Positions 15,708 through 35,205 of a stretch of 64,000 nucleotides of DNA are shown here, one piece after another. Source of the stretch: Caldanaerobius polysaccharolyticus DSM 13641. GTDB taxonomy: Bacteria; Bacillota; Thermoanaerobacteria; Thermoanaerobacterales; Caldanaerobiaceae. Positions within the stretch are counted from its first letter, which is position 1. Every line of letters starts with the position of its first letter. The position numbers and the translations under genes were made by a program. A model generated the notes under the pieces. The model did no database searches and was not told where the DNA came from. It was given only the letters and a program-made list of their open reading frames with translations. The stretch lies in NCBI RefSeq assembly GCF_000427425.1, contig NZ_KE386495.1, positions 981,072-1,045,071 of the forward strand. Reading direction: 5' to 3'.

Positions 15708-17483
15708 TTACATTTTAATTGCAGGAATTTTGACTTCGACAGTAGTTCCTTTGCCATATTCACTTTTAATAGATAGACCATATTTCTCGCCATAATATAA
15801 TTTTATTCTTTGGTTTATGTTTTTAAGGCCATACCCGTTTTCGTCTTCACTTTCGAAATCATTTGACAGAATTTTATCAATTTTGTCTTTTGGAATCCCT
15901 ATACCGTCGTCTTGTACCGATAATATTATTTCATCATTTTCTAATTTACCGTTTATTGATATCGTTCCATTTCCTTCTCCTTTTCCAAGGATTCCATGCA
16001 GTATAGAATTTTCAACTATAGGTTGTAATGTAATTTTTAAAATGCTATATTCGTATATGCGTTCGTCTGCCATTATCTTCAATAGAATTCTTCCAGAATA
16101 TCTCATATTTTGAATTTCAGTATAAAGAGCAGCATGAGTTAATTCGTCTTTTATAGAAATAATATCTTTTCCTTTATTTAGACTAAGCTTATAAAATTTA
16201 GCAAGGCTTTTAACAACCCTTCTTATTTCTTCATTCATATTTTTATATGACATCCAACTGATCATATCAAGAGTATTATATAAAAAATGAGGGTTTATTT
16301 GTGCCTGTAAAGCTTTAAGTTCTGCATTTTTTATTTCTTTACCTAATTTGTACTGTTCTTCAATAAGTACTGCCATCCTGCTAATCATAAAATTATAATT
16401 TTTAATAAGCTCACCAATTTCATCTTCACTTGAGTCATTAATAAACATATTTAAATTACCATCGTGGACATTTCTCATTCCAATTATTAATTTCGATATT
16501 CTTCTGTTTATTGAATTTGAAAAATAATATGCAAGCGAATACGCTATTGTACCAATGATTATCATTATTAAAAACAATTCGTTTCTTATTGCATTGCTTC
16601 CAGAAAGAACTTTGCTATAAGGTATAATTGTTATCATATACCAATCTGTATTTTTAATAAGAGAACTTGCTATAAGACATTGATTACCATTTATCGTTAA
16701 TAATTTTAATGTTCCACCTTGATAAGAAAGTTTGCTTGCTAGAGAGTTATCAATTTTGTATTTTTTTAAAAGAGAATTATCTGAAGATGCTACAATATCA
16801 CCTTTAGAATTTTGTATATATGTAAGGCTATCTTTAATTGTATTTGCCTTCTTAAGAATCTCATCAATTATTTTTTTTTGAAAATCTACACGGATGTACC
16901 CTATGTTCTCATGATAATTATTAGGGTTTTTTATAGTTGCGGCTACTGAAAGTAGTTGCGGGTTCATTATGTTGATATCTTCAAGATAGGAACTAGGGCA
17001 ATATAGATATTTTTCATTGTTTTTTTCTAAAATAGAAAACCATTTTGACTGTTTTGCTTGTTCAATGCTAAATAGATTGACGTTTTCGCTAGAGTAAATA
17101 AATTCGTTTAATGAATAAAGCCTTACTCGATAAATATCGACATTATCTTGTAAAGAGGAAAGAAATTGACGTAAATATGTCATATCTGCAATCTGCTCAT
17201 GGATATTGGATGAACTTGGATTTTTAGCAAGTATAGTAGTTAAATTACCATCATTACGTATTATATCTATTACTTGAGATATTTTATATAATTTATAGGC
17301 GAGAAAAGAATAAGTTTGATCAATAGCTTGGGCAGTTGAGAAAGTAATATAGTTTTTTACAATGTTGGATACTTGTTTGTACGTAAAAAGAGTTAAGATC
17401 ATAAGAGGTATTACTATAAGCATAAAGTAAGATAACAAAAATTTCTGCATTAATTTTAATCTTGAAAAAATCCTTTTATTCAC
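15708..17483 (-). CDS. YesM-type sensor histidine kinase
   Basis: A 591-residue membrane kinase. An N-terminal membrane helix (LLSYFMLIVIPLMILTLF) is followed by an extracellular sensor region of about 260 residues, a second helix (LFLIMIIIGTIAYSLAYYF, near residue 305), a HAMP linker, the His-kinase box ALQAQINPHFLYNTLDMISW (His near 397) and a C-terminal ATPase (NSILHG, DDGIGIP, GYGLKNINQRI). It is co-transcribed with the response regulator upstream on the same strand (28-base gap). YesM/YesN pairs control carbohydrate transporters, here very likely the divergent galactan operon. Confidence 0.92.
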   Translation of the reverse strand: MNKRIFSRLKLMQKFLLSYFMLIVIPLMILTLFTYKQVSNIVKNYITFSTAQAIDQTYSFLAYKLYKISQVIDIIRNDGNLTTILAKNPSSSNIHEQIADMTYLRQFLSSLQDNVDIYRVRLYSLNEFIYSSENVNLFSIEQAKQSKWFSILEKNNEKYLYCPSSYLEDINIMNPQLLSVAATIKNPNNYHENIGYIRVDFQKKIIDEILKKANTIKDSLTYIQNSKGDIVASSDNSLLKKYKIDNSLASKLSYQGGTLKLLTINGNQCLIASSLIKNTDWYMITIIPYSKVLSGSNAIRNELFLIMIIIGTIAYSLAYYFSNSINRRISKLIIGMRNVHDGNLNMFINDSSEDEIGELIKNYNFMISRMAVLIEEQYKLGKEIKNAELKALQAQINPHFLYNTLDMISWMSYKNMNEEIRRVVKSLAKFYKLSLNKGKDIISIKDELTHAALYTEIQNMRYSGRILLKIMADERIYEYSILKITLQPIVENSILHGILGKGEGNGTISINGKLENDEIILSVQDDGIGIPKDKIDKILSNDFESEDENGYGLKNINQRIKLYYGEKYGLSIKSEYGKGTTVEVKIPAIKM

Positions 17484-17511: not shown

Positions 17512-19044
17512 TTAATAAGTTGAAAGAATCTTTCTCCTATATTCTGAAGGTGTTAACCCTGTATCTTTCTTGAATAATTTTGTAAAATAATTTTCATCAG
17601 AGTATCCTACTTTAATGGCAATATCCTTTATTTTAATATTTTGATCTTTTAAAAGCTCTTTAGCCTTATACAATCTCAATTCTGTTATGTATTTATTTAT
17701 AGTTTTGCCAGTTTGCTTTTTAAATGTTTTACAGACATAGGCAGGAGAAAAATAAAAATTTTTGCTAATTGTTGTTAATGATAAATTTACATCTGTATAA
17801 TTATCATGAATATATTTTATTATTCGCGAAACTGTGTTATATTCACATTTTTGAGCTAGATAATTAAAAACAAATTCAATTTTTTTGATAAGGTATTCTT
17901 CCATTTCCATAATGTTGCAAAATGAAGAAAATATTTCAAATGTGCTTGTATTGTTTAAATCGTTTTGTATTAAATTTATATTTCTTTCGTTTGCATACTT
18001 CGTTAATTGCAAGAAAAGTCTATAGTATATGTCTTTTATATAGTTAACAGGAGTATTGGTGCATTTTTTTAATTCATAGGTAAGTCTTTTTATTAGAAAA
18101 ATGCTTTCGTATTTATTTTCTTGTGAAAGGTATTTGTAAAAATCTTCAATGACATTTTTATCAAGACTATAAATGTATCCTTCATTATTATTGCAGTTGA
18201 TTATAGAGCAATAATCATAAAAGAAAGTTTTGCATAAATTGTTTAATGCAACTTGATACGACTCAAAAATGTTAAGAATGCCACTGACTTTTTTACCAAC
18301 ACATATAAAAAAGTTGCTATATTGTTTTAAAAATTGAGAAATATTATAACATAACGCTTCTATTTGTTCTTTTATAAATTTTCTTTCGTCATTGTGATAC
18401 AGATGAAGGAGTATAATTTTTTCATCTTTAAAACATGAGATGCTTCCAAAATCATTTTTTGTAGCTATTTTTTCTATATTAGTAAGCACGGCTTTTTGAT
18501 CTATTTTATCTACATTTACAATATTAATTAAAATTGTAATAAAATAGCATTTACTCAGCTGGTTAAAATGATAGTTCCCTAAAAGCTCTTTAAGCTCATT
18601 AATATCAATATTTTGAGTGATTACTTGAAGTGCTATATGTTTCTTGATATTTTCATTTAATTTTAACATTTTTGATTTTACAGCGATTGCATTTTTAATC
18701 GCAGTTTGTAATTCTTCTATATCTATTGGTTTTTCAACATAACTTATAGCTTTAAGTTTTATAGCAGATTTAAGATATTCTTTGTCTGAATACCCACTCA
18801 TGAAAATGATTTCACAGGAAGGATAAATTTCCCTTAATTTGAAAGATAGTTCTATACCATCCATACGTGGCATTCTCACATCTGTTAATAGTATATCAGG
18901 TTTGAATCTAGAAGAGATTTCAAGTGCATTTACTCCATCGTAAGCTTGTTGAATCTCTGTGATACCTAATTTATTCCAGGGAATTTGTTCAATTATACTT
19001 TCTCGTGTGAAAACTTCGTCATCTACAATAAGTATGTTGAACAT
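17512..19044 (-). CDS. YesN-type AraC-family response regulator
   Basis: The 510-residue protein has an N-terminal receiver domain (FNILIVDDEVFTRES, phospho-acceptor Asp near residue 55 in LLTDVRMPRMDG, Lys in SYVEKPID) and a C-terminal AraC DNA-binding domain (about 405-505: NLSLTTISKNFYFSPAYVCK, DIAIKVGYSDENYFTKLFKK). A long middle region of about 250 residues is typical of YesN. It is the first gene of the minus-strand unit, and diverges from the permease genes across a 231-base region with a large palindrome. Confidence 0.92.
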   Translation of the reverse strand: MFNILIVDDEVFTRESIIEQIPWNKLGITEIQQAYDGVNALEISSRFKPDILLTDVRMPRMDGIELSFKLREIYPSCEIIFMSGYSDKEYLKSAIKLKAISYVEKPIDIEELQTAIKNAIAVKSKMLKLNENIKKHIALQVITQNIDINELKELLGNYHFNQLSKCYFITILINIVNVDKIDQKAVLTNIEKIATKNDFGSISCFKDEKIILLHLYHNDERKFIKEQIEALCYNISQFLKQYSNFFICVGKKVSGILNIFESYQVALNNLCKTFFYDYCSIINCNNNEGYIYSLDKNVIEDFYKYLSQENKYESIFLIKRLTYELKKCTNTPVNYIKDIYYRLFLQLTKYANERNINLIQNDLNNTSTFEIFSSFCNIMEMEEYLIKKIEFVFNYLAQKCEYNTVSRIIKYIHDNYTDVNLSLTTISKNFYFSPAYVCKTFKKQTGKTINKYITELRLYKAKELLKDQNIKIKDIAIKVGYSDENYFTKLFKKDTGLTPSEYRRKILSTY

Positions 19045-19178: not shown

Positions 19179-19275
19179 TAAAGTTTAAAAATGCTAAATT
19201 TAAATTAGCAAATGTGGTAAAACGTATACCAGAACATATAGCAACTAGCGCGACAAAGAGGAGGAGAGAAAATTG

Positions 19276-20235
19276 GTGGAAGAAAATTTTTTGTACAGAA
19301 TTAAAACACAAAATAGGTTGAAAAAAGGTTTTTTATACAAAGTTAAAAAATATAAAACTTTGCTGCTAATGCTTTTGCCTGCTGTGATATATTATTTTAT
19401 ATTTAGTTACATACCAATGACAGGTGTAGTATTAGCTTTTAAAAGGTTTAATTTTAGAGATGGTATTTGGGGTAGTCCTTGGGTAGGGTTTGATAATTTT
19501 AAGTTCTTTTTTATATCCGGGCAGGCCTTTAAAGTCACGAGAAATACAATTTTATACAATTTAGCGTTTATTGTAATAAATACTATTCTTCAGATTGCTA
19601 TGGCTATATTTATATCTGAAATGCGAGGAAAATATTTTAAAAAGGTGAGTCAATCGATAATGTTTTTTCCTTATTTTATATCGTGGGTTATAGTAAGTGT
19701 TATCGTTTATAATTTTTTTAATTATGAACACGGTATTTTTAATTCTTTATTAAAATTTGTAGGTTTTAAACCTGTTGATATATATTCTATGCCAGTTGCT
19801 TGGATTTTCATTATAATCTTATTTAATGCATGGAAAAATGTTGGATATGGAAGTGTACTGTATTTAGCTGCGATTATGGGTATAGATCAAGAAATATATG
19901 AAGCCGCAGCAATAGATGGAGCTAATATATTTCAGAGAATCATTTATGTAACTATTCCTGGTCTGGTGCCTACGATGATAATATTAATATTATTGGCTAT
20001 AGGTAATATATTTAGAGGCGATTTTCAAATGTTTTATCAACTTGTTGGCAATAATGGACCTCTTTTTGATGTTACAGATGTTATTGATACATTTACTTTT
20101 AGGTCACTTTTGCAGACTAACGAATTTGGTATGGCTGCTGCTTCGGGATTTTATCAATCTGTGTTTTGTTTTGTAACAATATTATTAGCAAATTTTTTAG
20201 TTAAAAAGTATGATAAAGATTATTCGCTGTTTTAG
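19276..20235 (+). CDS. ABC sugar transporter permease, LplB type
   Basis: A 319-residue inner-membrane permease with about six membrane helices. The cytoplasmic loop EAAAIDGANIFQRIIYVTIPG is the EAA motif that contacts the ATPase. It has LplB/YtcP-type features such as PAVIYYFIFSYIPMTGVVLAFKRF near the start. GTG 19276 is preferred over TTG 19273 on spacing from GAGGAGAG. With the next two genes it forms a CUT1-type importer lacking its own ATPase, which is usually provided by a shared MsmX-like protein. Galacto-oligosaccharides are the probable cargo. Confidence 0.92.
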   Translation: MEENFLYRIKTQNRLKKGFLYKVKKYKTLLLMLLPAVIYYFIFSYIPMTGVVLAFKRFNFRDGIWGSPWVGFDNFKFFFISGQAFKVTRNTILYNLAFIVINTILQIAMAIFISEMRGKYFKKVSQSIMFFPYFISWVIVSVIVYNFFNYEHGIFNSLLKFVGFKPVDIYSMPVAWIFIIILFNAWKNVGYGSVLYLAAIMGIDQEIYEAAAIDGANIFQRIIYVTIPGLVPTMIILILLAIGNIFRGDFQMFYQLVGNNGPLFDVTDVIDTFTFRSLLQTNEFGMAAASGFYQSVFCFVTILLANFLVKKYDKDYSLF

Positions 20236-20250
20236 AAAGTGGTGAGATAT

Positions 20251-21150
20251 ATGGCAAAAGGGAAAATACCATTGGATGTAAAGATATTCAATATTATTGC
20301 CTATATTGCCGTAGGTTTTGTGACTCTATGGTGTTTAATACCTTTTGTAATAGTCGTTTCAGGTTCATTTACTTCGGAAGAGTATATTTTAAAGTATGGT
20401 TTTAGCCTTTTTCCAAAAGATTTTTCTATAGAGGCATATAAAGTTGCATTACAAAACCCAATGGCGGTATTGAGAGCTTATGGGGTCACTATAAGTTTAA
20501 CTGTTATTGGAACATTTCTCGGATTATTTATTACATCTATGACTTCGTATGTGTTGACAAGAAAGGATTTTGAGTGGAGAAACAAATTTGCTTTTTACTT
20601 CTATTTTACTACTTTGTTTAATGGTGGACTGGTGCCTTGGTATATTTTAATGGTAAAGTATTTACATTTAAAAGACAGCTACTTAGCGCTTTTATTACCG
20701 CCCTTATTAAATGTTTTTAATATTTTAGTTATGAAAAGCTATATGAGTGGTATACCCGATGCTATAACCGAATCTGCAAAAATTGATGGCGCAGGAGATT
20801 TCACCATATTTATAAAATTAATATTGCCGTTGGCCAAACCAGCTCTAGCCACAGTAGGCCTTTTTATCGCTTTGGGTTATTGGAATGATTGGTATGATTC
20901 GATGTTGTTTATTCAAAATGAAAACTTATATAGTTTACAATATTTTCTATATAAGATAGTTAATAATATTGAAGCTTATAAAAATATAGTGTCTCAAACA
21001 GGAGGTAGTATCAGTGTGAATATAAGTTTACCGAGTGAATCTTTAAAGATGGCACTTACAGTTATAGTTACAGGACCTATAGTACTCCTATATCCCTTTA
21101 TTCAGAAATATTTCGTTAAAGGTATTACAATTGGAGCTGTCAAAGGATAA
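20251..21150 (+). CDS. ABC sugar transporter permease, LplC type
   Basis: A 299-residue permease with six predicted helices. The EAA loop is TESAKIDGAGDFTIFIKLILPLAKP, and the C-terminus IQKYFVKGITIGAVKG is highly typical of the LplC/YtcP group. It pairs with the preceding permease in the same transporter. ATG 20251 is chosen with AGTGGTGAG just upstream; GTG codons at 20239 and 20242 are alternatives. Confidence 0.92.
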   Translation: MAKGKIPLDVKIFNIIAYIAVGFVTLWCLIPFVIVVSGSFTSEEYILKYGFSLFPKDFSIEAYKVALQNPMAVLRAYGVTISLTVIGTFLGLFITSMTSYVLTRKDFEWRNKFAFYFYFTTLFNGGLVPWYILMVKYLHLKDSYLALLLPPLLNVFNILVMKSYMSGIPDAITESAKIDGAGDFTIFIKLILPLAKPALATVGLFIALGYWNDWYDSMLFIQNENLYSLQYFLYKIVNNIEAYKNIVSQTGGSISVNISLPSESLKMALTVIVTGPIVLLYPFIQKYFVKGITIGAVKG

Positions 21151-21205
21151 ATCCCGTTATGGGGTTTATTATATGAAAATATTAAAGAAGGGGAGGCATT
21201 TAAAA

Positions 21206-22738
21206 GTGAGAAAAATTTTAAAAAAAATAAGTCTTGTGCTTGCATTAGTTTTGGTTATAGCTTCACTATTTACTGGTTGTACAAAAACCAGGACAAGTGT
21301 AAGTACCAGTAATGGGAAAAATGGTTTAAGTCCTGTCACACTTAAAATGTATCTTTTAGGAGATAAACCAAAAGATTTCGAACGTGTTTATGCTGAAGTA
21401 AATAAGTTGATGAAGCAGAAAATTAATGCAACATTAGATGTCCAATTTATACCTTGGGGAGATTTAAATAGTAAATACCCATTGCTGTTTTCCTCTGGTG
21501 AAGATTTTGATTTAATTTTTACTGCAGCAGGATGGTGTTTTTACAATCAGATAGCTACTAGTGGTGGATTTTTAGAATTGACACCTGAAATGTTACAAAA
21601 ATATGCACCAAATACATGGAAATATGAGCCTAAGCTTGCGTGGGATCAAGCAAAAGTAAACGGGAAAATATATATGGTACCTAATGATCAAAAGGAATAT
21701 GGATATAATGTTATCGGCGTAAGAGGAGATCTCATGGAGAAATACGGCATATCTGATATAAAAAGCGAAGCAGATCTAGAAAAATATTATGATGCTATTT
21801 TGAAAAATGAAAAGGGCATTGTGCCTATAGTCAATGGCGGTGGACAAAATCTTGAATGGCCGTATTTGTTAGAAGGAAATGAGTTTGCTCAGGTACGTGG
21901 TACGGGATCAGAGCCATTGTTTGTATATAAAATAACTGATAGCTCGGGAAAAATACTTTCTATAGTTGACACTCCAGAATTTAAAGATTATGTGTTAAAA
22001 ATGAGAGAATTGGCAGTTAAAGGTGTATGGTCTAAAAATTCTATTTCCAGTAAAGAAACTAGAGATGATGCTTTTAAAGCGGGAAGGGCCGCATCCATGG
22101 TATGGAACCTTGGAACAGTTTCAGCTGATGTTACTACAATGAATAAAGAGCATCCAGAATGGAAAGCACGAGTTGTAGATATACACCCCGGGGTTAAGAA
22201 ATTAATTAATCCATATACAAATAATGGTATAGCTATAAATGCCAATTCAAAAAATCCCGAAAGAGCGTTAATGGCTATAGACCTTTTAAGATATGATCGT
22301 GACATACATGATTTAGCGACTTATGGAATTAAAGGAGTTCATTGGGAACCAGTGGGTGATACTCAATATAAACTTTTACCAGGTTCAGTTAATTTTTCAG
22401 AAATTAATAATTCTTCTTGGGGATGGCATACGCATATAAATCGTACAGATGCCAATCAGCCTGAAATAGTAAAACAATTAACTGATAAATGGACAAAAGA
22501 GGATCTTGTTCATCATCCATTAGAAGGCTTTACCTTTGACGATTCAAAAGTAAAAAATGAAATGGCAGCGATCAACAATGTCGTTACTCAATATGGGCTT
22601 CCGCTAAACCTTGGGATGATATCAGACCCAATTAAAGGAATCGAAACTTATAGGCAAAAGTTAAAAGCAGCTGGTTTATATAAAGTGCTAGAAGAAATTC
22701 AAAAACAAGCGGATCAATATATGAAAGAGCATAAGTAG
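21206..22738 (+). CDS. Extracellular sugar-binding lipoprotein (LplA type)
   Basis: A 510-residue solute-binding protein of family 1. The signal peptide MRKILKKISLVLALVLVIAS ends in the lipobox LFTGC, so Cys25 should be lipid-anchored outside the membrane. The mature part has binding-protein features including DLIFTAAGWCFYNQI and a C-terminal coiled region. GTG 21206 follows GGGAGG at 21191-21196; an ATG at 21131 would add residues before a proper signal. Ligand is probably an arabinogalactan- or galactan-derived oligosaccharide, judged from the two GH53 genes that follow. Confidence 0.9.
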   Translation: MRKILKKISLVLALVLVIASLFTGCTKTRTSVSTSNGKNGLSPVTLKMYLLGDKPKDFERVYAEVNKLMKQKINATLDVQFIPWGDLNSKYPLLFSSGEDFDLIFTAAGWCFYNQIATSGGFLELTPEMLQKYAPNTWKYEPKLAWDQAKVNGKIYMVPNDQKEYGYNVIGVRGDLMEKYGISDIKSEADLEKYYDAILKNEKGIVPIVNGGGQNLEWPYLLEGNEFAQVRGTGSEPLFVYKITDSSGKILSIVDTPEFKDYVLKMRELAVKGVWSKNSISSKETRDDAFKAGRAASMVWNLGTVSADVTTMNKEHPEWKARVVDIHPGVKKLINPYTNNGIAINANSKNPERALMAIDLLRYDRDIHDLATYGIKGVHWEPVGDTQYKLLPGSVNFSEINNSSWGWHTHINRTDANQPEIVKQLTDKWTKEDLVHHPLEGFTFDDSKVKNEMAAINNVVTQYGLPLNLGMISDPIKGIETYRQKLKAAGLYKVLEEIQKQADQYMKEHK

Positions 22739-22841
22739 AAAAGAAAAAGATTAGTTATTATACCAGAGGTGGCAGATATATAACATCTGTCACCTCGATA
22801 TGATTGGTTTTTGATAAACTAAGGATTAGGAGATGAGGCTT

Positions 22842-23894
22842 TTGGAAAACTTATTTATAAAAGGGGCAGATGTATCTTGGTTAAAACTTATGGAAGATTG
22901 TGGCGCTAGATATTACGAAAATGGGCAATTAAAAGACTGCTTAGAAATTTTAAAGAATAATGGAATCAATTATATAAGGCTTAGAATTTGGAATAATCCT
23001 CCTTTTGAGTATTGTAATAAGCAATCAACGCTTGAAATGGTAAAGCGTTTGAAAAAACTTGGATTCAAGTTTCTACTGGATTTTCACTATTCGGATTTTT
23101 GGGCCGATCCAGCAAAGCAAAATAAGCCTGCAGCATGGGAGAACTTGACTTTCAATGAACTTAAGGATGCTGTTTATAACTACACGAAAGAGGTAATATG
23201 CGCTTTAAAAGATCAAGGTACTTTGCCGGATATGGTTCAAATAGGTAATGAAATTACATGGGGAATGTTATGGCCTGACGCTAAACTCAGCCGCGAAAAT
23301 AACGGTGATGAACAGTGGGATAAGTTTACTGATTTAATTAAGGCTGGTGTAAATGGTGTGGAAGACAGTTTAGACTCAAAACAATGGATAAAGATTATGA
23401 TTCATATAGATAGAGGAGGAGACAATGAAACAAGTAGATGGTTTTTCGATAACCTGATTTCAAAAAGCGTTGAATTTGATGTAATCGGTTTGTCGTTTTA
23501 CCCTTTATGGCACGGGACCTTATCGATGCTTAAGGATAACATTAGCGATCTTGCTTTAAGGTATAATAAAGACATTGTGGTAGTGGAATGCGCATATCCT
23601 TTTGCAATAAACACAGTAGAAGGTTCTCAGAGTATTATTAATGATTCCAGTCAACTGCACGAAGGGTATGAAGCTACACCAGAAGGTCAAGCCAGGTATG
23701 TAAGAGACCTTATTGCAATTGTTAAAGGTATACCTCAAGGTAGAGGTAAGGGTGTGTTTTACTGGGAACCCGATTGGATAAAGGTACCAAATAATAAAGC
23801 AGATAAAATATCAATCAATAATTGGTATAACCAAGCGTTATTTGATTTTGAAGGTAATGCGCTAAAGGCTTTACAGGTGTTTAAGGAATTTTAG
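22842..23894 (+). CDS. GH53 endo-beta-1,4-galactanase without signal peptide (cytoplasmic)
   Basis: A 350-residue protein that is only the GH53 catalytic domain. Family hallmarks are FIKGADVSWL, YIRLRIWNNP, LLDFHYSDFWADPAKQNKPAAW, the acid/base Glu in VQIGNEITWGMLWPD and the nucleophile Glu in VVVECAYPF (most relatives have ETAYP). GH53 hydrolyses beta-1,4-linked galactan. There is no hydrophobic N-terminus, so the enzyme should stay inside and act on imported oligosaccharides. TTG 22842 has correct spacing from AGGAG (22828-22832); the ATG at 22833 directly abuts it. Confidence 0.92.
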   Translation: MENLFIKGADVSWLKLMEDCGARYYENGQLKDCLEILKNNGINYIRLRIWNNPPFEYCNKQSTLEMVKRLKKLGFKFLLDFHYSDFWADPAKQNKPAAWENLTFNELKDAVYNYTKEVICALKDQGTLPDMVQIGNEITWGMLWPDAKLSRENNGDEQWDKFTDLIKAGVNGVEDSLDSKQWIKIMIHIDRGGDNETSRWFFDNLISKSVEFDVIGLSFYPLWHGTLSMLKDNISDLALRYNKDIVVVECAYPFAINTVEGSQSIINDSSQLHEGYEATPEGQARYVRDLIAIVKGIPQGRGKGVFYWEPDWIKVPNNKADKISINNWYNQALFDFEGNALKALQVFKEF

Positions 23895-23924
23895 ATACTA
23901 GCTTATTAAGGGGGAGGAATGCTT

Positions 23925-26900
23925 ATGACAAATAAAACTAAAAGTTTTATAGTATTGGCTATAGTAATTGTAGTAATATTTTTTTCAGTAAATGTAGCAA
24001 ATGCAAATGTTCAATCAACCTCTTCAAAAATTTATGTAAATCCTATTAGAGGTCTTAGATCTGATTTTATAAAAGGCGCTGATGTATCGATGTTGGCGCA
24101 GATAGAACAAAATGGTGGAAAATTTTATGACAGTGGAGTACGAAAGGATTGTCTTAAAATTTTAAAAGACCATGGAGTAAATTGGATTAGGTTGAGGATC
24201 TGGAACAATCCTAAGGATGCTAATGGAATTTGGTTGGGTGGAGGAAATAATGACGAAGAGAGAACAATATACATGGCAAAAAGAGCAAAAGATTTAGGAT
24301 TAAAGATTCTTCTTGATTTCCATTATAGTGATTTCTGGGCTGATCCTGGTAAACAAAACAAACCGGCTGCTTGGGTAAATGACAGCGGAGAAAAACTTCA
24401 GCAAGATGTATATGATTTTACAGCTAAAGTTATAAGAGATCTTAAAAATAATGGTGTAATCCCAGATATGGTTCAGATAGGAAATGAAATAGATAATGGT
24501 ATATTGTGGCCTGATGGCAAGATTTCAGGAACAGGTTCTGGCGGTTATTCTGGCCTTGCAGCATTATTAGAGCAGGGAATTAAAGCTGTAAGGGATAATG
24601 ATCCAAACAAAAATGATCCTGAGAAAAAGATAAAAATTATGCTGCACCTATCAAGGGGTGGAGATAATGCACTTTATCGTTCTTTTTTTGATAACTTGAT
24701 ATATAAACAGGGACTTACGGATTTTGATGTAATAGGGCTTTCATATTATCCATATTGGAGCGGTACCCTTGAGGAATTGAAATACAATATAAATGATATA
24801 AGTCAACGCTATAATAAGTATGTGGTTATTGCTGAAACTGCATATGCGTTTACTTTAGATAATGCAGACACAACTGAAAACAATTTTGGTGTTAAAGAAG
24901 AAGCTATAGGTGGCTATAAAGCTTCTGTGCAAGGTCAAGCTACTGCAGTAAGGAATATAATGGAGGTTGTTTCACAGGTACCCGACAATAAGGGACTTGG
25001 CGTTTTTTACTGGGAACCAGATTGGATTCCAGTTGCTGGTGCAGGATGGAAGACTGACGAAGGTAATGCTTGGGAAAATCAGGCTATGTTCGATTTTCAG
25101 GGCAACGCGCTTCCTTCAATAGATGTTTTTAATCTTGTATCAGGTGCTCAAGGTAGCGTAGCTCCGAGGATTTTATCTATAGAGCCTGTAAACGTATCGA
25201 CAGAAGTTGGTCAAGCACCGACACTTCCGACTACAGTAAATCTGGTTTATGATGATGAATCGGTTAGGCAAGCTTCTGTAACATGGGAAAGTATTGATCC
25301 TGATAAATATGCACGTCCTGGTAGTTTTACCGTTACAGGTACAATTCCTGGCGTCAAGTTTAAGGCTATCGCTACTATTACTGTAACGAATATAATAAAC
25401 TATGTACAAAATTCGGGATTTGAAGAAGGATCATTATCACATTGGAATATCTCAGGGGATATCTCTTCTGTAAAGATAGATAAGAATGCTGCTAATGCGC
25501 ACTCAGGAAGCTATTCATTAAATTACTGGAATGATAGTGCATTTACAGTCACTATATCACAGACAATAACTGGATTAAAAAATGGTTATTATAAATTAAG
25601 TGCATATGTCGACGGTAGCGGAGGGGAGAACAGTTTACAGCTGTTTGCAAGTGATTATGGCGGTCCTCGATTAACTGCCGATATTCATAATTCTGGATGG
25701 CTTGTTTGGCAACATCCTGTTATTTCGTTAATTGAGGTTACAAATGGTCAAATTACGATAGGTTTAACCATTGACGGAAACAGTGGTAATTGGGGAAATC
25801 TTGATGATGTACAGCTAATTCAAGTCGATGCCTCTGGAAGTCCGATAGGAGGTTCTGTATCAACAGTGTTGACAACGCCCTCTTATGTTAACTCTGGAGA
25901 CTCGTTTGAAATAGGTTATGGTTTAAAAGACGTCTCGCAAGCTGTTTATGCTCAGGAAATTACGCTAAGTTATGATCCAATGATTTTTGATTTTGTAAAA
26001 GCTGTTAAGTCGGATGATGATACTGTAATCTCCAGGATATACAGTGATACGCCAGGAACTGTGATTATAGACACAGTAAACAGCAAAGGACTAACAGTAG
26101 GTAAAAATTTATTCAATCTTACATTCAGAGCAAATACAGTTGATCAACTAACATATAGTAATATAGCTGTAACAGAAGCTAAGCTCCAAATCACAACGAA
26201 AGGTGGTACTACAGTAGATGCGGCGTTAACCAGCAGGACCATTGCTGTAGGTGGAACAGCTTCTGTAACGTTGACATCTCCTACTTTGGTAGAGCCAGGA
26301 AATAATTTTACGTTAAAAATAGGCATAAGTGGTATTTTACAGCCTATATATGCTCAAGATATTACGTTGAATTATGATCCGAACTTATTTGAGCTTTTGA
26401 AGATAGATAGTGATGGCAAATCTATAGTAATAGACAATGTGTATGACAATATACAGGGGACTGCTCGTATTATAGGTATTAATATTGGAGGACTAACTGG
26501 TAATTCTAGTGTAATGAAGCTTACATTTCGTGCCAAGGAAGTTTCGCAACCTGCAAATGGAGTTATATTTGTCGCAGATGCACAATTAGGTGTTGCACCC
26601 CAGGGAAATGTAATATTTCCTAATTTATCAAGTGTAAATATAAAAGTAGAAAGCAAGGGGTGGATTGACAATGAAGGGGCAGCTACAAAAAGCCAAGGAA
26701 GTACAAGTAATTTTAATTCGATAGATTCATGGAAAATAATTGTAACACCTGTGATTGATCCTATTACGGGTATTCCAACGGTAAATATTAGCGTTAGTGA
26801 TTTGAATAATGCTTTAAAAAATGCCCCAATAGATAAATACAATGTGAAAACAGCTGTAATTGATGTACCGAAAATTGACGGACAAACACAGTATGATATT

Positions 26901-27893
26901 AAATTACCCGCCTCTGTTTTTTCTTCAAAGATAGAAAAACAAAAAGTTGAAATTGCAACGGATGTTGCTACAATTACTATACCTATTAATATGTTTAGTT
27001 CAGCTGAAGTTAAAGGAGCAAAGGATATAATATTGAGCATTAAAAATGTAGACAAGACAAAATTTGACGCATCTGTAATGACACAGATTGGCACCAGACC
27101 TGTGATAGACTTGAGTGTAAAAGTGGATAGCGCAAATATATTATGGAACAATCCTGATGCGCCCGTTGCCATATCCATTCCTTATAAGCCAACTGCAGAA
27201 GAGTTAAAAGATCAAGATCATATCGTTGCATTATACATAAATGATAATGAAAAAGCTATAGCTGTACCAAACTCTAAATATGACCCTGTATCAGGAAAGT
27301 TGATCTTTACAGCAACACATTTAGGAAAATATGCAGTCGCATTTATTCATAAAACATTTAATGATATAAGCAATTATGACTGGGCAAAAAATGCGATAGA
27401 AGTTCTTGCATCTAAAGGTATTACAAGCGGAACGTCACAAACAACATTTAGCCCGGCTAGGAAGGTGTCTAGAGCGGAATATTTGTCAATGCTTATATCA
27501 GCGCTTGGTTTAACTGCTAAAGTTGATGAAAATTTCGACGATGTTCATAAGACAGATTATTATTATGAGTCTGTAGGGATTGCGAAAAAACTTGGAATAG
27601 TTACGGGAGTGGGCAATAAGAAATTTGATCCAACTGAACCTATTACGCGAGAGGATATGATGGTATTAACGTTTAGAGCACTTAAGGCAATAGGAAAATT
27701 ACAGTCCACAGGAACAACTGATGATTTAGTCAATTTTACAGATAAAAATTATATATCTGAGTATGCGGAAGAAAGTATAGCTACGCTAGTTAAGGAAGGA
27801 ATTGTATGTGGTCGGGCCAATAGGATTGCACCTAAAGATAACGCCACTAGGGCTGAAGCTGCTACAATTATATACAGAGTAATTAAAAAATAG
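23925..27893 (+). CDS. Cell-surface GH53 galactanase with CBM61, two cohesin-like modules and SLH anchor
   Basis: A 1322-residue modular protein. In order: signal peptide (MTNKTKSFIVLAIVIVVIFF, residues 1-28); GH53 domain (24063-25125) with VQIGNEIDNGILWPD and VIAETAYAF carrying the two catalytic Glu; Ig-like domain (25163-25395); CBM61-like galactan-binding module (25399-25830); two cohesin-like modules (25850-26250 and 26257-26655) with YAQEITLSYDPMIFDF and YAQDITLNYDPNLFELL; a linker of unknown fold; three SLH domains (27354-27890). ATG 23925 is seven bases after GGGGAGG. It should sit on the wall polymer, hydrolyse galactan and offer docking sites for dockerin proteins. The next gene encodes one. 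Confidence 0.93.
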   Translation: MTNKTKSFIVLAIVIVVIFFSVNVANANVQSTSSKIYVNPIRGLRSDFIKGADVSMLAQIEQNGGKFYDSGVRKDCLKILKDHGVNWIRLRIWNNPKDANGIWLGGGNNDEERTIYMAKRAKDLGLKILLDFHYSDFWADPGKQNKPAAWVNDSGEKLQQDVYDFTAKVIRDLKNNGVIPDMVQIGNEIDNGILWPDGKISGTGSGGYSGLAALLEQGIKAVRDNDPNKNDPEKKIKIMLHLSRGGDNALYRSFFDNLIYKQGLTDFDVIGLSYYPYWSGTLEELKYNINDISQRYNKYVVIAETAYAFTLDNADTTENNFGVKEEAIGGYKASVQGQATAVRNIMEVVSQVPDNKGLGVFYWEPDWIPVAGAGWKTDEGNAWENQAMFDFQGNALPSIDVFNLVSGAQGSVAPRILSIEPVNVSTEVGQAPTLPTTVNLVYDDESVRQASVTWESIDPDKYARPGSFTVTGTIPGVKFKAIATITVTNIINYVQNSGFEEGSLSHWNISGDISSVKIDKNAANAHSGSYSLNYWNDSAFTVTISQTITGLKNGYYKLSAYVDGSGGENSLQLFASDYGGPRLTADIHNSGWLVWQHPVISLIEVTNGQITIGLTIDGNSGNWGNLDDVQLIQVDASGSPIGGSVSTVLTTPSYVNSGDSFEIGYGLKDVSQAVYAQEITLSYDPMIFDFVKAVKSDDDTVISRIYSDTPGTVIIDTVNSKGLTVGKNLFNLTFRANTVDQLTYSNIAVTEAKLQITTKGGTTVDAALTSRTIAVGGTASVTLTSPTLVEPGNNFTLKIGISGILQPIYAQDITLNYDPNLFELLKIDSDGKSIVIDNVYDNIQGTARIIGINIGGLTGNSSVMKLTFRAKEVSQPANGVIFVADAQLGVAPQGNVIFPNLSSVNIKVESKGWIDNEGAATKSQGSTSNFNSIDSWKIIVTPVIDPITGIPTVNISVSDLNNALKNAPIDKYNVKTAVIDVPKIDGQTQYDIKLPASVFSSKIEKQKVEIATDVATITIPINMFSSAEVKGAKDIILSIKNVDKTKFDASVMTQIGTRPVIDLSVKVDSANILWNNPDAPVAISIPYKPTAEELKDQDHIVALYINDNEKAIAVPNSKYDPVSGKLIFTATHLGKYAVAFIHKTFNDISNYDWAKNAIEVLASKGITSGTSQTTFSPARKVSRAEYLSMLISALGLTAKVDENFDDVHKTDYYYESVGIAKKLGIVTGVGNKKFDPTEPITREDMMVLTFRALKAIGKLQSTGTTDDLVNFTDKNYISEYAEESIATLVKEGIVCGRANRIAPKDNATRAEAATIIYRVIKK

Positions 27894-27934
27894 GACGGGT
27901 ATCATCAGTTCAATTGAATGAGAGAGGGAGTCAT

Positions 27935-28903
27935 ATGAAGAAACTTTTTAAATTTTTGTCGTTTATTTTAACGATGTTTTTGATGGTTGTAAACTCACCT
28001 ACGAATGTAGTGTGGGCTGATCCTGTAAATCTTGTACAAAATCCGGGGTTTGAATCAGGTTTAGATAGCTGGACTGTCGATCAAAGCCAAAGTAATATAG
28101 CTTCTATTAATTCTTCTGGAAAAGCTGAAGAAATAAAATCAGGTAATAACTCTCTTGCTATTTATTATGGGTCAAGCTATACATTGAAAGTAACACAAAC
28201 TATTACAAATATTCCACCTGGTAAATATTCTTTAACTGTTTATGCAGAGGGCGATCCATCGGAAAACAAGGCAAATATTCAGTTGTTTGCTAATAATTAC
28301 GGTGGACCACAACTAACGGCGAGTATTACTAACACGGGTTGGGGTAAATGGGTACAATATTCAATAAATAATATAGAAGTTACCACCGGAACATGTACAA
28401 TAGGAATTCAAGTAGATTCAAACGCGCCTTATTGGGGTACTTTTGATGACTTTGCATTTATAAGGGTAGGTGAGATTGGTGCTTCACCTACAATTAATTC
28501 TATAAAACCTATTACCGTAAATACAGTGATTAATAATCCGCCACAACTTCCTTCTGTCGTAACAGCCGTTTATAATGATGGTTCTACGAAACAGGTAGAT
28601 GTCACATGGGATGCGATAGATCCGCTGGATTATCAACAAATTCATTCTTTTAATGTTTATGGTACTGTAAGCGGGACAGTGTATCGAGCACAGGCTACTG
28701 TAATAGTCAATTACAAGTCTATGGATCTAAATAATAATGGTTTATTTGATGTTGGAGATTTAGCAGTTGCAATGTACTATTATCAAACAAAATCAGAAGA
28801 TGTCAATTGGAGTAGTGCAAAAGTTGCTGATATCAATAACGATGGAATAGTAGATTTGATTGATATGAAACTAATAGCTAGGCAAATCCTTGAAAAAAAC
28901 TAG
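27935..28903 (+). CDS. Secreted CBM61-Ig-dockerin protein (no catalytic domain)
   Basis: The 322-residue protein has a signal peptide (MKKLFKFLSFILTMFLMVV), a CBM61-like module (about 33-180: NLVQNPGFESGLDSW to GTFDDFAFI), an Ig-like module (about 187-263) and a C-terminal dockerin (28718-28900). The dockerin has two calcium loops, DLNNNGLFDVGDL and DINNDGIVDLIDM. CBM61 and Ig modules resemble those of the preceding galactanase but in swapped order. ATG 27935 follows GAGGGAG. It is a non-enzymatic galactan-binding subunit that may dock on the cohesin-like modules next door. Confidence 0.9.
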   Translation: MKKLFKFLSFILTMFLMVVNSPTNVVWADPVNLVQNPGFESGLDSWTVDQSQSNIASINSSGKAEEIKSGNNSLAIYYGSSYTLKVTQTITNIPPGKYSLTVYAEGDPSENKANIQLFANNYGGPQLTASITNTGWGKWVQYSINNIEVTTGTCTIGIQVDSNAPYWGTFDDFAFIRVGEIGASPTINSIKPITVNTVINNPPQLPSVVTAVYNDGSTKQVDVTWDAIDPLDYQQIHSFNVYGTVSGTVYRAQATVIVNYKSMDLNNNGLFDVGDLAVAMYYYQTKSEDVNWSSAKVADINNDGIVDLIDMKLIARQILEKN

Positions 28904-28938
28904 CTGTTGACAATTTGTGTCAACAGCTAGTTTTTTGT
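28898..28938 (+). terminator. Terminator of the galactan operon
   Basis: A perfect 15-bp stem (28898-28912, AACTAGCTGTTGACA, with 28918-28932), loop ATTTG, then a T-run. The dockerin gene's stop codon lies inside the left arm. Confidence 0.92.
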
Positions 28939-34079: not shown

Positions 34080-34104
34080 AAATTTTTTGATGGAGAGGGT
34101 ATTG

Positions 34105-35205
34105 ATGAGGGTTTTGATATCGGGGTATTACGGATTTGGAAATACAGGAGATGAGGCGATTTTAAGGGCTATTGTAAATTCGATGAGGAGTGAGAAACCG
34201 GATTTAGATATCGTCGTATTATCCGACAATCCAAAAGAAACAGAAAAGATACATAACGTCAGGGCCATAAATCGCATGGATTTAGTAAGCATATGGACAA
34301 CCCTCTCCTGTTCAGATATGCTTATAAGCGGTGGTGGTGGATTATTACAGGATATTACGAGTACCAGAAACATTCTGTATTACATCACCATAATTTACAT
34401 GGCATGGCTTTTAAAAAAACCGGTGGTGTATTACGCTAACGGCGTAGGACCTATACGAAGCTATTTCAATAGGTTGCTGGTCAGAAATGTCAGCAATAAG
34501 GTGCAAGTGATAACAGTGAGGGATTTTTTGTCAAAATGCCAATTAGATGAGATAGGTGTAAAAAAGGATATATTTATAACTGCGGACCCAGCATTTCTTT
34601 TAAAAGTTCCCGATTACGTAAATGTGGAGAAAATCTACGAGAGAGAAGGTATACCGTTAGATAAAAAAATACTGGGTGTTTCTATACGCAAATGGAATAA
34701 TTTTAACAATGTGAAAAATGCTTTTAAAGATTTCGTAAGGAGAGCAAGGGGTGTAGAGGATTTTAACATAGTGTTTTTGCCCATGCAAAAGGGAGAGGAT
34801 TTGTGCGTATGCGAGGAGATAGCTAATTGCTTTGACAGGTCTTATGTGGTAAAAGGAAGTTATGATGTGTATGAAATATTAGGCATTGTGAGCAAATTTG
34901 ATTACATGATAGGGATGAGATTACATGCGATGATTTTCTCTGTATTAAATGGAGTACCTGTCATTGGAATATCTTATGATCCTAAAATAGATAATTTTTT
35001 CGGGATAATAGGCCAGCAATACCTTAATCACGTCGATGAAGTGAATGGCGAAAGGCTGTTTAACCAGTATCTAGATGTAGTTATGCACAGGAAAGAGATA
35101 TCTGATTATCTTAAGAGAAAGTCTGAGGAATTGAGGTTAAAAGCAATGGAAAACAACAAAATTGCTTTCAAAGTGCTGGAAAGGCAGAGATGGGTTAATG
35201 ATTGA
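34105..35205 (+). CDS. csaB: Polysaccharide pyruvyl transferase
   Basis: A 366-residue CsaB-family enzyme. It begins MRVLISGYYGFGNTGDEAIL and has LISGGGGLLQD, VVYYANGVGPI and the C-terminal MRLHAMIFSVLNGVPVIGISYDPK. CsaB adds ketal-linked pyruvate to secondary cell wall polymers, which is what SLH domains recognise. This ties in with the SLH-anchored galactanase at 23925-27893. ATG 34105 follows GGAGAGGGT; the in-frame ATGs at 34087 and 34090 are less well placed. The TagA-type gene follows with an 8-base overlap. Confidence 0.92.
   Translation: MRVLISGYYGFGNTGDEAILRAIVNSMRSEKPDLDIVVLSDNPKETEKIHNVRAINRMDLVSIWTTLSCSDMLISGGGGLLQDITSTRNILYYITIIYMAWLLKKPVVYYANGVGPIRSYFNRLLVRNVSNKVQVITVRDFLSKCQLDEIGVKKDIFITADPAFLLKVPDYVNVEKIYEREGIPLDKKILGVSIRKWNNFNNVKNAFKDFVRRARGVEDFNIVFLPMQKGEDLCVCEEIANCFDRSYVVKGSYDVYEILGIVSKFDYMIGMRLHAMIFSVLNGVPVIGISYDPKIDNFFGIIGQQYLNHVDEVNGERLFNQYLDVVMHRKEISDYLKRKSEELRLKAMENNKIAFKVLERQRWVND

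Follow-up and report, generated by a model that had tools for sequence, protein, structure and literature searches.

Glycoside hydrolases that carry a cohesin, with the dockerin placed on a separate protein, are known from Clostridium perfringens (NagJ, NanJ, NagH, and others; Adams et al., 2008, cited in PMC12997984); each such enzyme of this species has a single cohesin, the proteins with cohesins and those with dockerins number five each, and the clients are catalytic (PMC12997984). Catalysis and scaffolding are joined in CipV/ScaA of Acetivibrio cellulolyticus, which combines a GH9 domain and seven cohesins in one chain (PMC12997984) and serves a large cellulosome, with 41 cohesins in 16 scaffoldins, as its primary scaffoldin (PMC3413522). 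The minimal cellulosome of C. saccharoperbutylacetonicum comprises 2 cohesins and 8 dockerin enzymes (PMC7157769). For galactan recognition, the Thermotoga maritima module TmCBM61 was solved with galactotriose (2xom/2xon).

In the window (the whole stretch of DNA that was analyzed, 64,000 nucleotides long), two adjacent genes encode a galactanase with two cohesins and a protein ending in a dockerin (Table 1). This pair is closest to the C. perfringens kind: both have the cohesin inside a glycoside hydrolase and the dockerin on a separate secreted protein, with no classical scaffoldin, and the C. perfringens cohesins are the closest to those of the window by sequence and fold. The differences are that the galactanase has two cohesins and three SLH repeats, that its only client is non-catalytic (CBM61 and Big_4 in place of a glycoside hydrolase), and that the target would be plant galactan. 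CipV/ScaA likewise unites a catalytic domain with tandem cohesins in a single chain, but it reaches the cell via the SLH scaffoldins ScaC/ScaD, whereas the galactanase bears SLH repeats itself and serves one dockerin. The C. saccharoperbutylacetonicum system also has two cohesins in total; there, in contrast, a separate non-catalytic scaffoldin with a CBM3 serves eight enzymes, while here the scaffold is catalytic and the dockerin is single. Both CBM61 modules of the window are homologous to TmCBM61 and match its fold, although delivery in T. maritima proceeds without a dockerin.

With cellulosomes in general the pair shares the presence of cohesin and dockerin modules in one genome (here two and one, respectively), and it resembles a cellulosome in miniature whose scaffold would be the enzyme itself. 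We did not file it as one, since all the cohesins found are part of the GH53 enzyme and none belongs to a separate non-catalytic scaffoldin, and since in place of several dockerin enzymes there is one dockerin, on a non-catalytic protein. What is new is the whole-genome minimum, the union of catalyst, scaffold, and anchor in one chain, and the non-catalytic client. A literature search, with most subscription papers outside it, returned no description of this pair or of any cohesin or dockerin in Thermoanaerobacterales; the lack of any description found in the literature of a chain that unites GH53 with tandem cohesins and SLH, or of such a one-dockerin genome, is weak evidence. The preliminary description had named the linked dockerin as the new point, which was too strong: enzyme-borne cohesins with real dockerin partners are known (PMC12997984), and small linked cohesin/dockerin loci proved frequent in the phylum.

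Table 1. Features of the galactanase/dockerin locus and its surroundings, in window coordinates.
Feature	Position	Strand	Basis
Sensor histidine kinase (dCache, HAMP)	15708..17483	-	
AraC-type response regulator	17512..19044	-	
ABC importer permease 1	19273..20235	+	PF00528
ABC importer permease 2	20239..21150	+	PF00528 23.9 bits, slightly below cut-off; 54% identical to f4/g7-locus permease
Oligosaccharide-binding lipoprotein of ABC importer (SBP_bac_1 + DUF3502)	21131..22738	+	
Second GH53, without signal peptide	22833..23894	+	PF07745 1.4e-121
Wall galactanase-scaffold (putative), 1322 aa	23925..27893	+	ORF, Pfam, PDB sequence matches, two full-length orthologues
GH53 endo-beta-1,4-galactanase domain	24069..25130	+	PF07745 3.1e-135
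Big_4 Ig-like domain of galactanase	25179..25355	+	PF07532 61.6 bits
CBM61 galactan-binding module of galactanase	25395..25820	+	TmCBM61 2xom match, E 7.6e-30
Cohesin 1	25863..26249	+	PF00963 44.5 bits, exceeds cut-off (whole-genome scoring); resembles C. perfringens NagJ enzyme-borne cohesin
Cohesin 2	26265..26624	+	PF00963 50.2 bits, exceeds cut-off (whole-genome scoring); Foldseek matches
Linker domain ahead of SLH repeats	26655..27353	+	blastp; with SLH matches f4/g7 separate anchor protein
Three SLH repeats, wall anchor	27354-27482, 27531-27659, 27735-27863 (27354..27863)	+	PF00395
Dockerin protein, 322 aa (signal peptide, CBM61, Big_4, dockerin)	27935..28903	+	
CBM61 of dockerin protein	28022..28465	+	2xom match 5e-16; AF2 model best PDB match 2xon, TMt 0.75
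Big_4 of dockerin protein	28502..28675	+	PF07532 52.2 bits
Type-I dockerin	28721..28891	+	PF00404; calcium loops 28724-28759 and 28829-28864
Shared rho-independent terminator	28898..28936	+	15-bp hairpin then T run, -22.3 kcal/mol, z -6.5
CsaB-like polysaccharide pyruvyl transferase	34087..35205	+	PF04230 170.7 bits; genome's only one

The galactanase ORF spans 23919-27893, with the start at 23925 preferred for its better ribosome-site spacing. The product is composed of a signal peptide (recognized by eye in the translated ORF), GH53, Big_4, CBM61, cohesin 1, cohesin 2, the linker domain, and three SLH repeats. Pfam and 2xom homology thus bear out the module list of the preliminary description (GH53, Ig, CBM61, two cohesins, three SLH), and its placement of the cohesins at 25850-26250 and 26257-26655 agrees with the PF00963 matches. 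The GH53 domain is full-length and exceeds the Pfam cut-off (451 bits); its candidate catalytic glutamates, which we take to be E188 (in GNE) and E304 (in AET), are invariant in the orthologues. Scored on the whole ORF, Pfam gives 70.2 bits for Cohesin in two stretches and 115 bits for SLH in three. The two cohesins are 35% identical. The predicted model of cohesin 2, made from the two cohesin sequences of the window, is of low confidence (pLDDT 54.5), and its first 41 PDB matches in Foldseek are all cohesins, headed by the C. perfringens enzyme-borne cohesins 2jh2 and 2vo8; a generic Ig fold behind the cohesin matches was rejected on these grounds. Sequence comparison likewise gives cohesins of this type as the nearest relatives of solved structure, and one C. 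perfringens relative was solved in an entry that also contains the NagH dockerin (2ozn). The AlphaFold inputs were the window sequences plus one related locus, so that all models are single-chain models from shallow alignments.

The second gene begins 41 bases downstream. No terminator-like site was found between the two genes, and the hairpin follows only the second, as the preliminary description had it in placing both before the same terminator. The content given there for the second protein, CBM61, Ig, and a two-loop dockerin, likewise stands, and no catalytic domain was found in it by Pfam scan or PDB sequence matches. The Dockerin_1 profile (PF00404, cut-off 22.9 bits) scores 21.9 bits on the ORF and 25.4 bits in the genome search, compared with 29.2 and 28.0 bits for the two orthologues. 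The two calcium loops, DLNNNGLFDVGD and DINNDGIVDLID, are both canonical (pattern DxNxxGxxDxxD), intact in the window, and largely kept in the orthologues. A chance dockerin, as the weak ORF score might suggest, was rejected, given the conserved loops and the above-cut-off scores of the orthologues. The predicted model is confident over CBM61 and Big_4, the CBM61 matching TmCBM61 with galactotriose best, and places a helix after each calcium loop (273-286 and 309-321) in a tail with pLDDT <50. The usual recognition positions differ between the dockerin repeats (VG vs. LI), and the same pattern is present in other dockerins of the order; from this we would guess at a single binding mode.

We consider it likely that the wall-anchored galactanase serves as a two-socket scaffoldin, and that it and the dockerin protein make up a closed cohesin-dockerin complex acting on beta-1,4-galactan. 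After secretion the galactanase would be retained at the cell wall through its SLH repeats, with GH53 cutting galactan, the adjoining CBM61 gripping it, and the two cohesins providing the sockets. The co-transcribed CBM61-Big_4-dockerin protein would plug into one or both of these, probably with calcium, so that each enzyme, with one galactan-binding module of its own, would come to hold up to three. The cohesins may bind with unequal affinity, like those of C. saccharoperbutylacetonicum. Released galacto-oligosaccharides would pass to the neighboring ABC importer and be cut further by the second GH53, which is presumably cytoplasmic because it lacks a signal peptide; these upstream genes and those of the two-component system were absent from the preliminary description. 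SLH anchoring is credible, given the many other SLH proteins and the one CsaB-type pyruvyl transferase in the genome. The CsaB-like gene, whose product would make the SLH ligand, sits 5 kb downstream of the pair. The earlier proposal of a wall-bound enzyme as scaffold for the dockerin protein gains from the closure of the genome, the conserved pair, and the co-occurrence in the order; partner binding itself, with its stoichiometry, calcium dependence, and gain in substrate affinity, is what we infer. The pairing finds support in three lines of evidence: genome closure, co-occurrence in the order together with the conserved adjacent pair, and a comparison with relatives that hold the parts in cis.

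Genome-wide, one dockerin and two cohesins were detected, all of them in this adjacent gene pair. The search used family profiles at E up to 10 on a 2.5-Mb genome (3 contigs, 96% complete), and no further dockerins or cohesins were found, which answers the question of other dockerins raised in the preliminary description. Two sockets for a single plug leave room for other clients, and type-I cohesin-dockerin recognition crosses species in known cases. The dockerin might dock mainly on cohesins of foreign cells or species, or the cohesins might await foreign dockerin enzymes. A simpler client is the partner encoded next door, which is co-transcribed and has matching galactan modules, and we assign such community exchange a very small probability.

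Among 24 genomes of the order, dockerin and cohesin are both present in the same six and both missing from the other 18. By simple counting the chance of such an exact overlap is 7e-6, a figure that is overstated because some of the genomes are sisters. The same pair of neighboring genes occurs in two genomes, G013 (67% identical) and G016 (71%), each time with 2 cohesins and 1 dockerin. Unlike in the window, its neighbors are a GH2 gene and a transporter of unrelated type, which means that the pair was kept together while its surroundings changed. The genus of the g4 genomes is, we infer, Thermoanaerobacterium. No cohesin, dockerin, or galactanase was found in the sister species G001, and the whole system is thus dispensable.

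Between the window and G013/G016, omega is 0.07 for GH53, 0.15 for cohesin 1, 0.26 for cohesin 2, and 0.25 for the dockerin; on these values all modules are under purifying selection, with cohesins and dockerin at about 0.15-0.27. The cohesins are among the faster-evolving parts (51% identity for cohesin 2 vs. 84% for GH53), and between G013 and G016 their omega of 0.6-0.7, from few changes, is mild evidence against strong constraint. In the phylum (398 genomes), dockerins were found in 54 genomes, cohesins in 82, and both in 34 (Fisher 1.3e-13, kinship uncorrected), and in many of the 34 there are 1-3 dockerins that lie no more than a few kilobases from a cohesin. More than one-half of the cohesin-bearing genomes (48/82) have a cohesin match without any dockerin, so that cohesin folds can serve otherwise. 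The last figure and the faster change of the cohesins relative to GH53 would suit a reading in which the cohesins are Ig-like stalk spacers and the dockerin a vestigial or separate calcium-binding tail, the two proteins lying side by side unbound. We regard this as rather unlikely in view of the exact co-occurrence in the order, the placement of the genome's only plug and sockets in adjacent genes, the joint conservation of the pair in a swapped gene context, and the canonical calcium loops kept in the window dockerin and largely in its orthologues.

The f4/g7 genomes, which belong to another family of the same class and are probably Caldicellulosiruptor, have a locus (L066, L068) with related parts: sensor kinase, regulator, two permeases (54-62% identical), binding protein, GH53 enzyme, and SLH protein. 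In contrast to the window, CBM61 is there joined covalently, in a single 1105-aa chain of the order GH53-Big_4-CBM61-Big_4-CBM61, and the SLH anchor is a separate 547-aa protein; no cohesins were found in the f4/g7 genomes, and no dockerins in those sampled. The dockerin protein aligns with the CBM61-Big_4 part of the f4/g7 enzyme (37% over 234 aa), while galactanase residues 975-1322 match the separate SLH protein (34-36% over about 350 aa, blastp). A Paenibacillus MAG (L028) has CBM61, GH53, Big_4, and SLH in one 1435-aa chain. Parts that are covalently joined in relatives would thus be joined via cohesin and dockerin here: the fused CBM61 modules and the lack of cohesins and dockerins in f4/g7 suggest that the dockerin supplies non-covalently what relatives supply covalently. 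We do not claim a simple one-step split of the f4/g7 enzyme. The first CBM61 of that enzyme aligns with both proteins of the window, which indicates that the parts were re-assorted and not split at one point. A contig scan with the dockerin protein as query returned only two distant CBM61 relatives. In one f4/g7 genome (G034; L069 1556-8267) the fused GH53 gene is apparently broken by inserted ORFs resembling mobile elements.

The same comparison bears on what docking would be for. A pair that binds could act mainly in adhesion or substrate capture, with the dockerin protein tethering galactan and not raising hydrolysis by the galactanase, as the SLH anchoring and a non-catalytic client made up of CBM61 and Big_4 only would allow. 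Set against this, the pair lies in a complete locus for galactan sensing, import, and hydrolysis, and the same module is fused to the enzyme in the f4/g7 relatives, pointing to enzyme targeting; we hold a pure tether to be quite improbable, and enzyme targeting by the docked protein stays our preferred reading.

A broader proposal, on which our judgment is evenly divided, is that in this order cohesin and dockerin are locus-private snap fasteners replacing covalent domain fusion, that the CBM61 arm fused to the enzyme in relatives has here turned into a plug-in part, and that this is the smallest complete cohesin-dockerin system known (one plug, two sockets), with one enzyme as catalyst, scaffold, and wall anchor. 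Small linked pairs of like build that carry other cargo elsewhere in the phylum would turn this into a general, overlooked design apart from cellulosomes. As a natural two-gene system, the pair allows cohesin-dockerin assembly to be studied without dozens of cellulosome components. The host is a probable thermophile, and its relatives hold the same parts fused, so that the gain of non-covalent assembly over covalent fusion is testable with both designs on the same substrate. The pair would also be a compact orthogonal one for engineering.

Judged from profile matches, small linked cohesin/dockerin loci are recurrent across the phylum, which suggests that such pairs outside cellulosomes are common. 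A cohesin-SLH protein adjoins a dockerin protein in two loci (L071 and L081), and an amidase with a dockerin adjoins a gene with a cohesin match in a third (L082). In other families (L070, L073, L075, and L080), the two-gene layout recurs with an SH3 and/or cadherin-like protein ending in a dockerin and a partner (about 550-640 aa) that has a cohesin match at its N-terminus; three of these loci (L070, L073, and L075) have paired cadherin-like proteins. Adjacent Shr-like hemoglobin-interacting (heme-binding-like) proteins, one with a cohesin and one with a dockerin, are encoded in G343 (L078 3-4146). G325 (L084 1104-6581) encodes a GH2 beta-galactosidase of 1825 aa that also carries NPCBM, cohesin, and Big_4; no dockerin was detected in this genome.

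In G019 (L025 9433-18324 and L026 3495-7406), a cohesin-SLH anchor and a cohesin-dockerin protein cluster with phosphate-related enzymes, namely a 5'-nucleotidase/metallophosphatase that has both a cohesin and a dockerin, and a phosphodiester glycosidase/metallophosphatase with a dockerin. The products of this cluster may form a daisy chain, anchored to the wall and joined by cohesin-dockerin links, that scavenges phosphate. In a related locus of G017 (L024 2-3856), a DUF4855/Ig protein with dockerin and cohesin adjoins an SLH protein with a cohesin match, followed by a binding protein.
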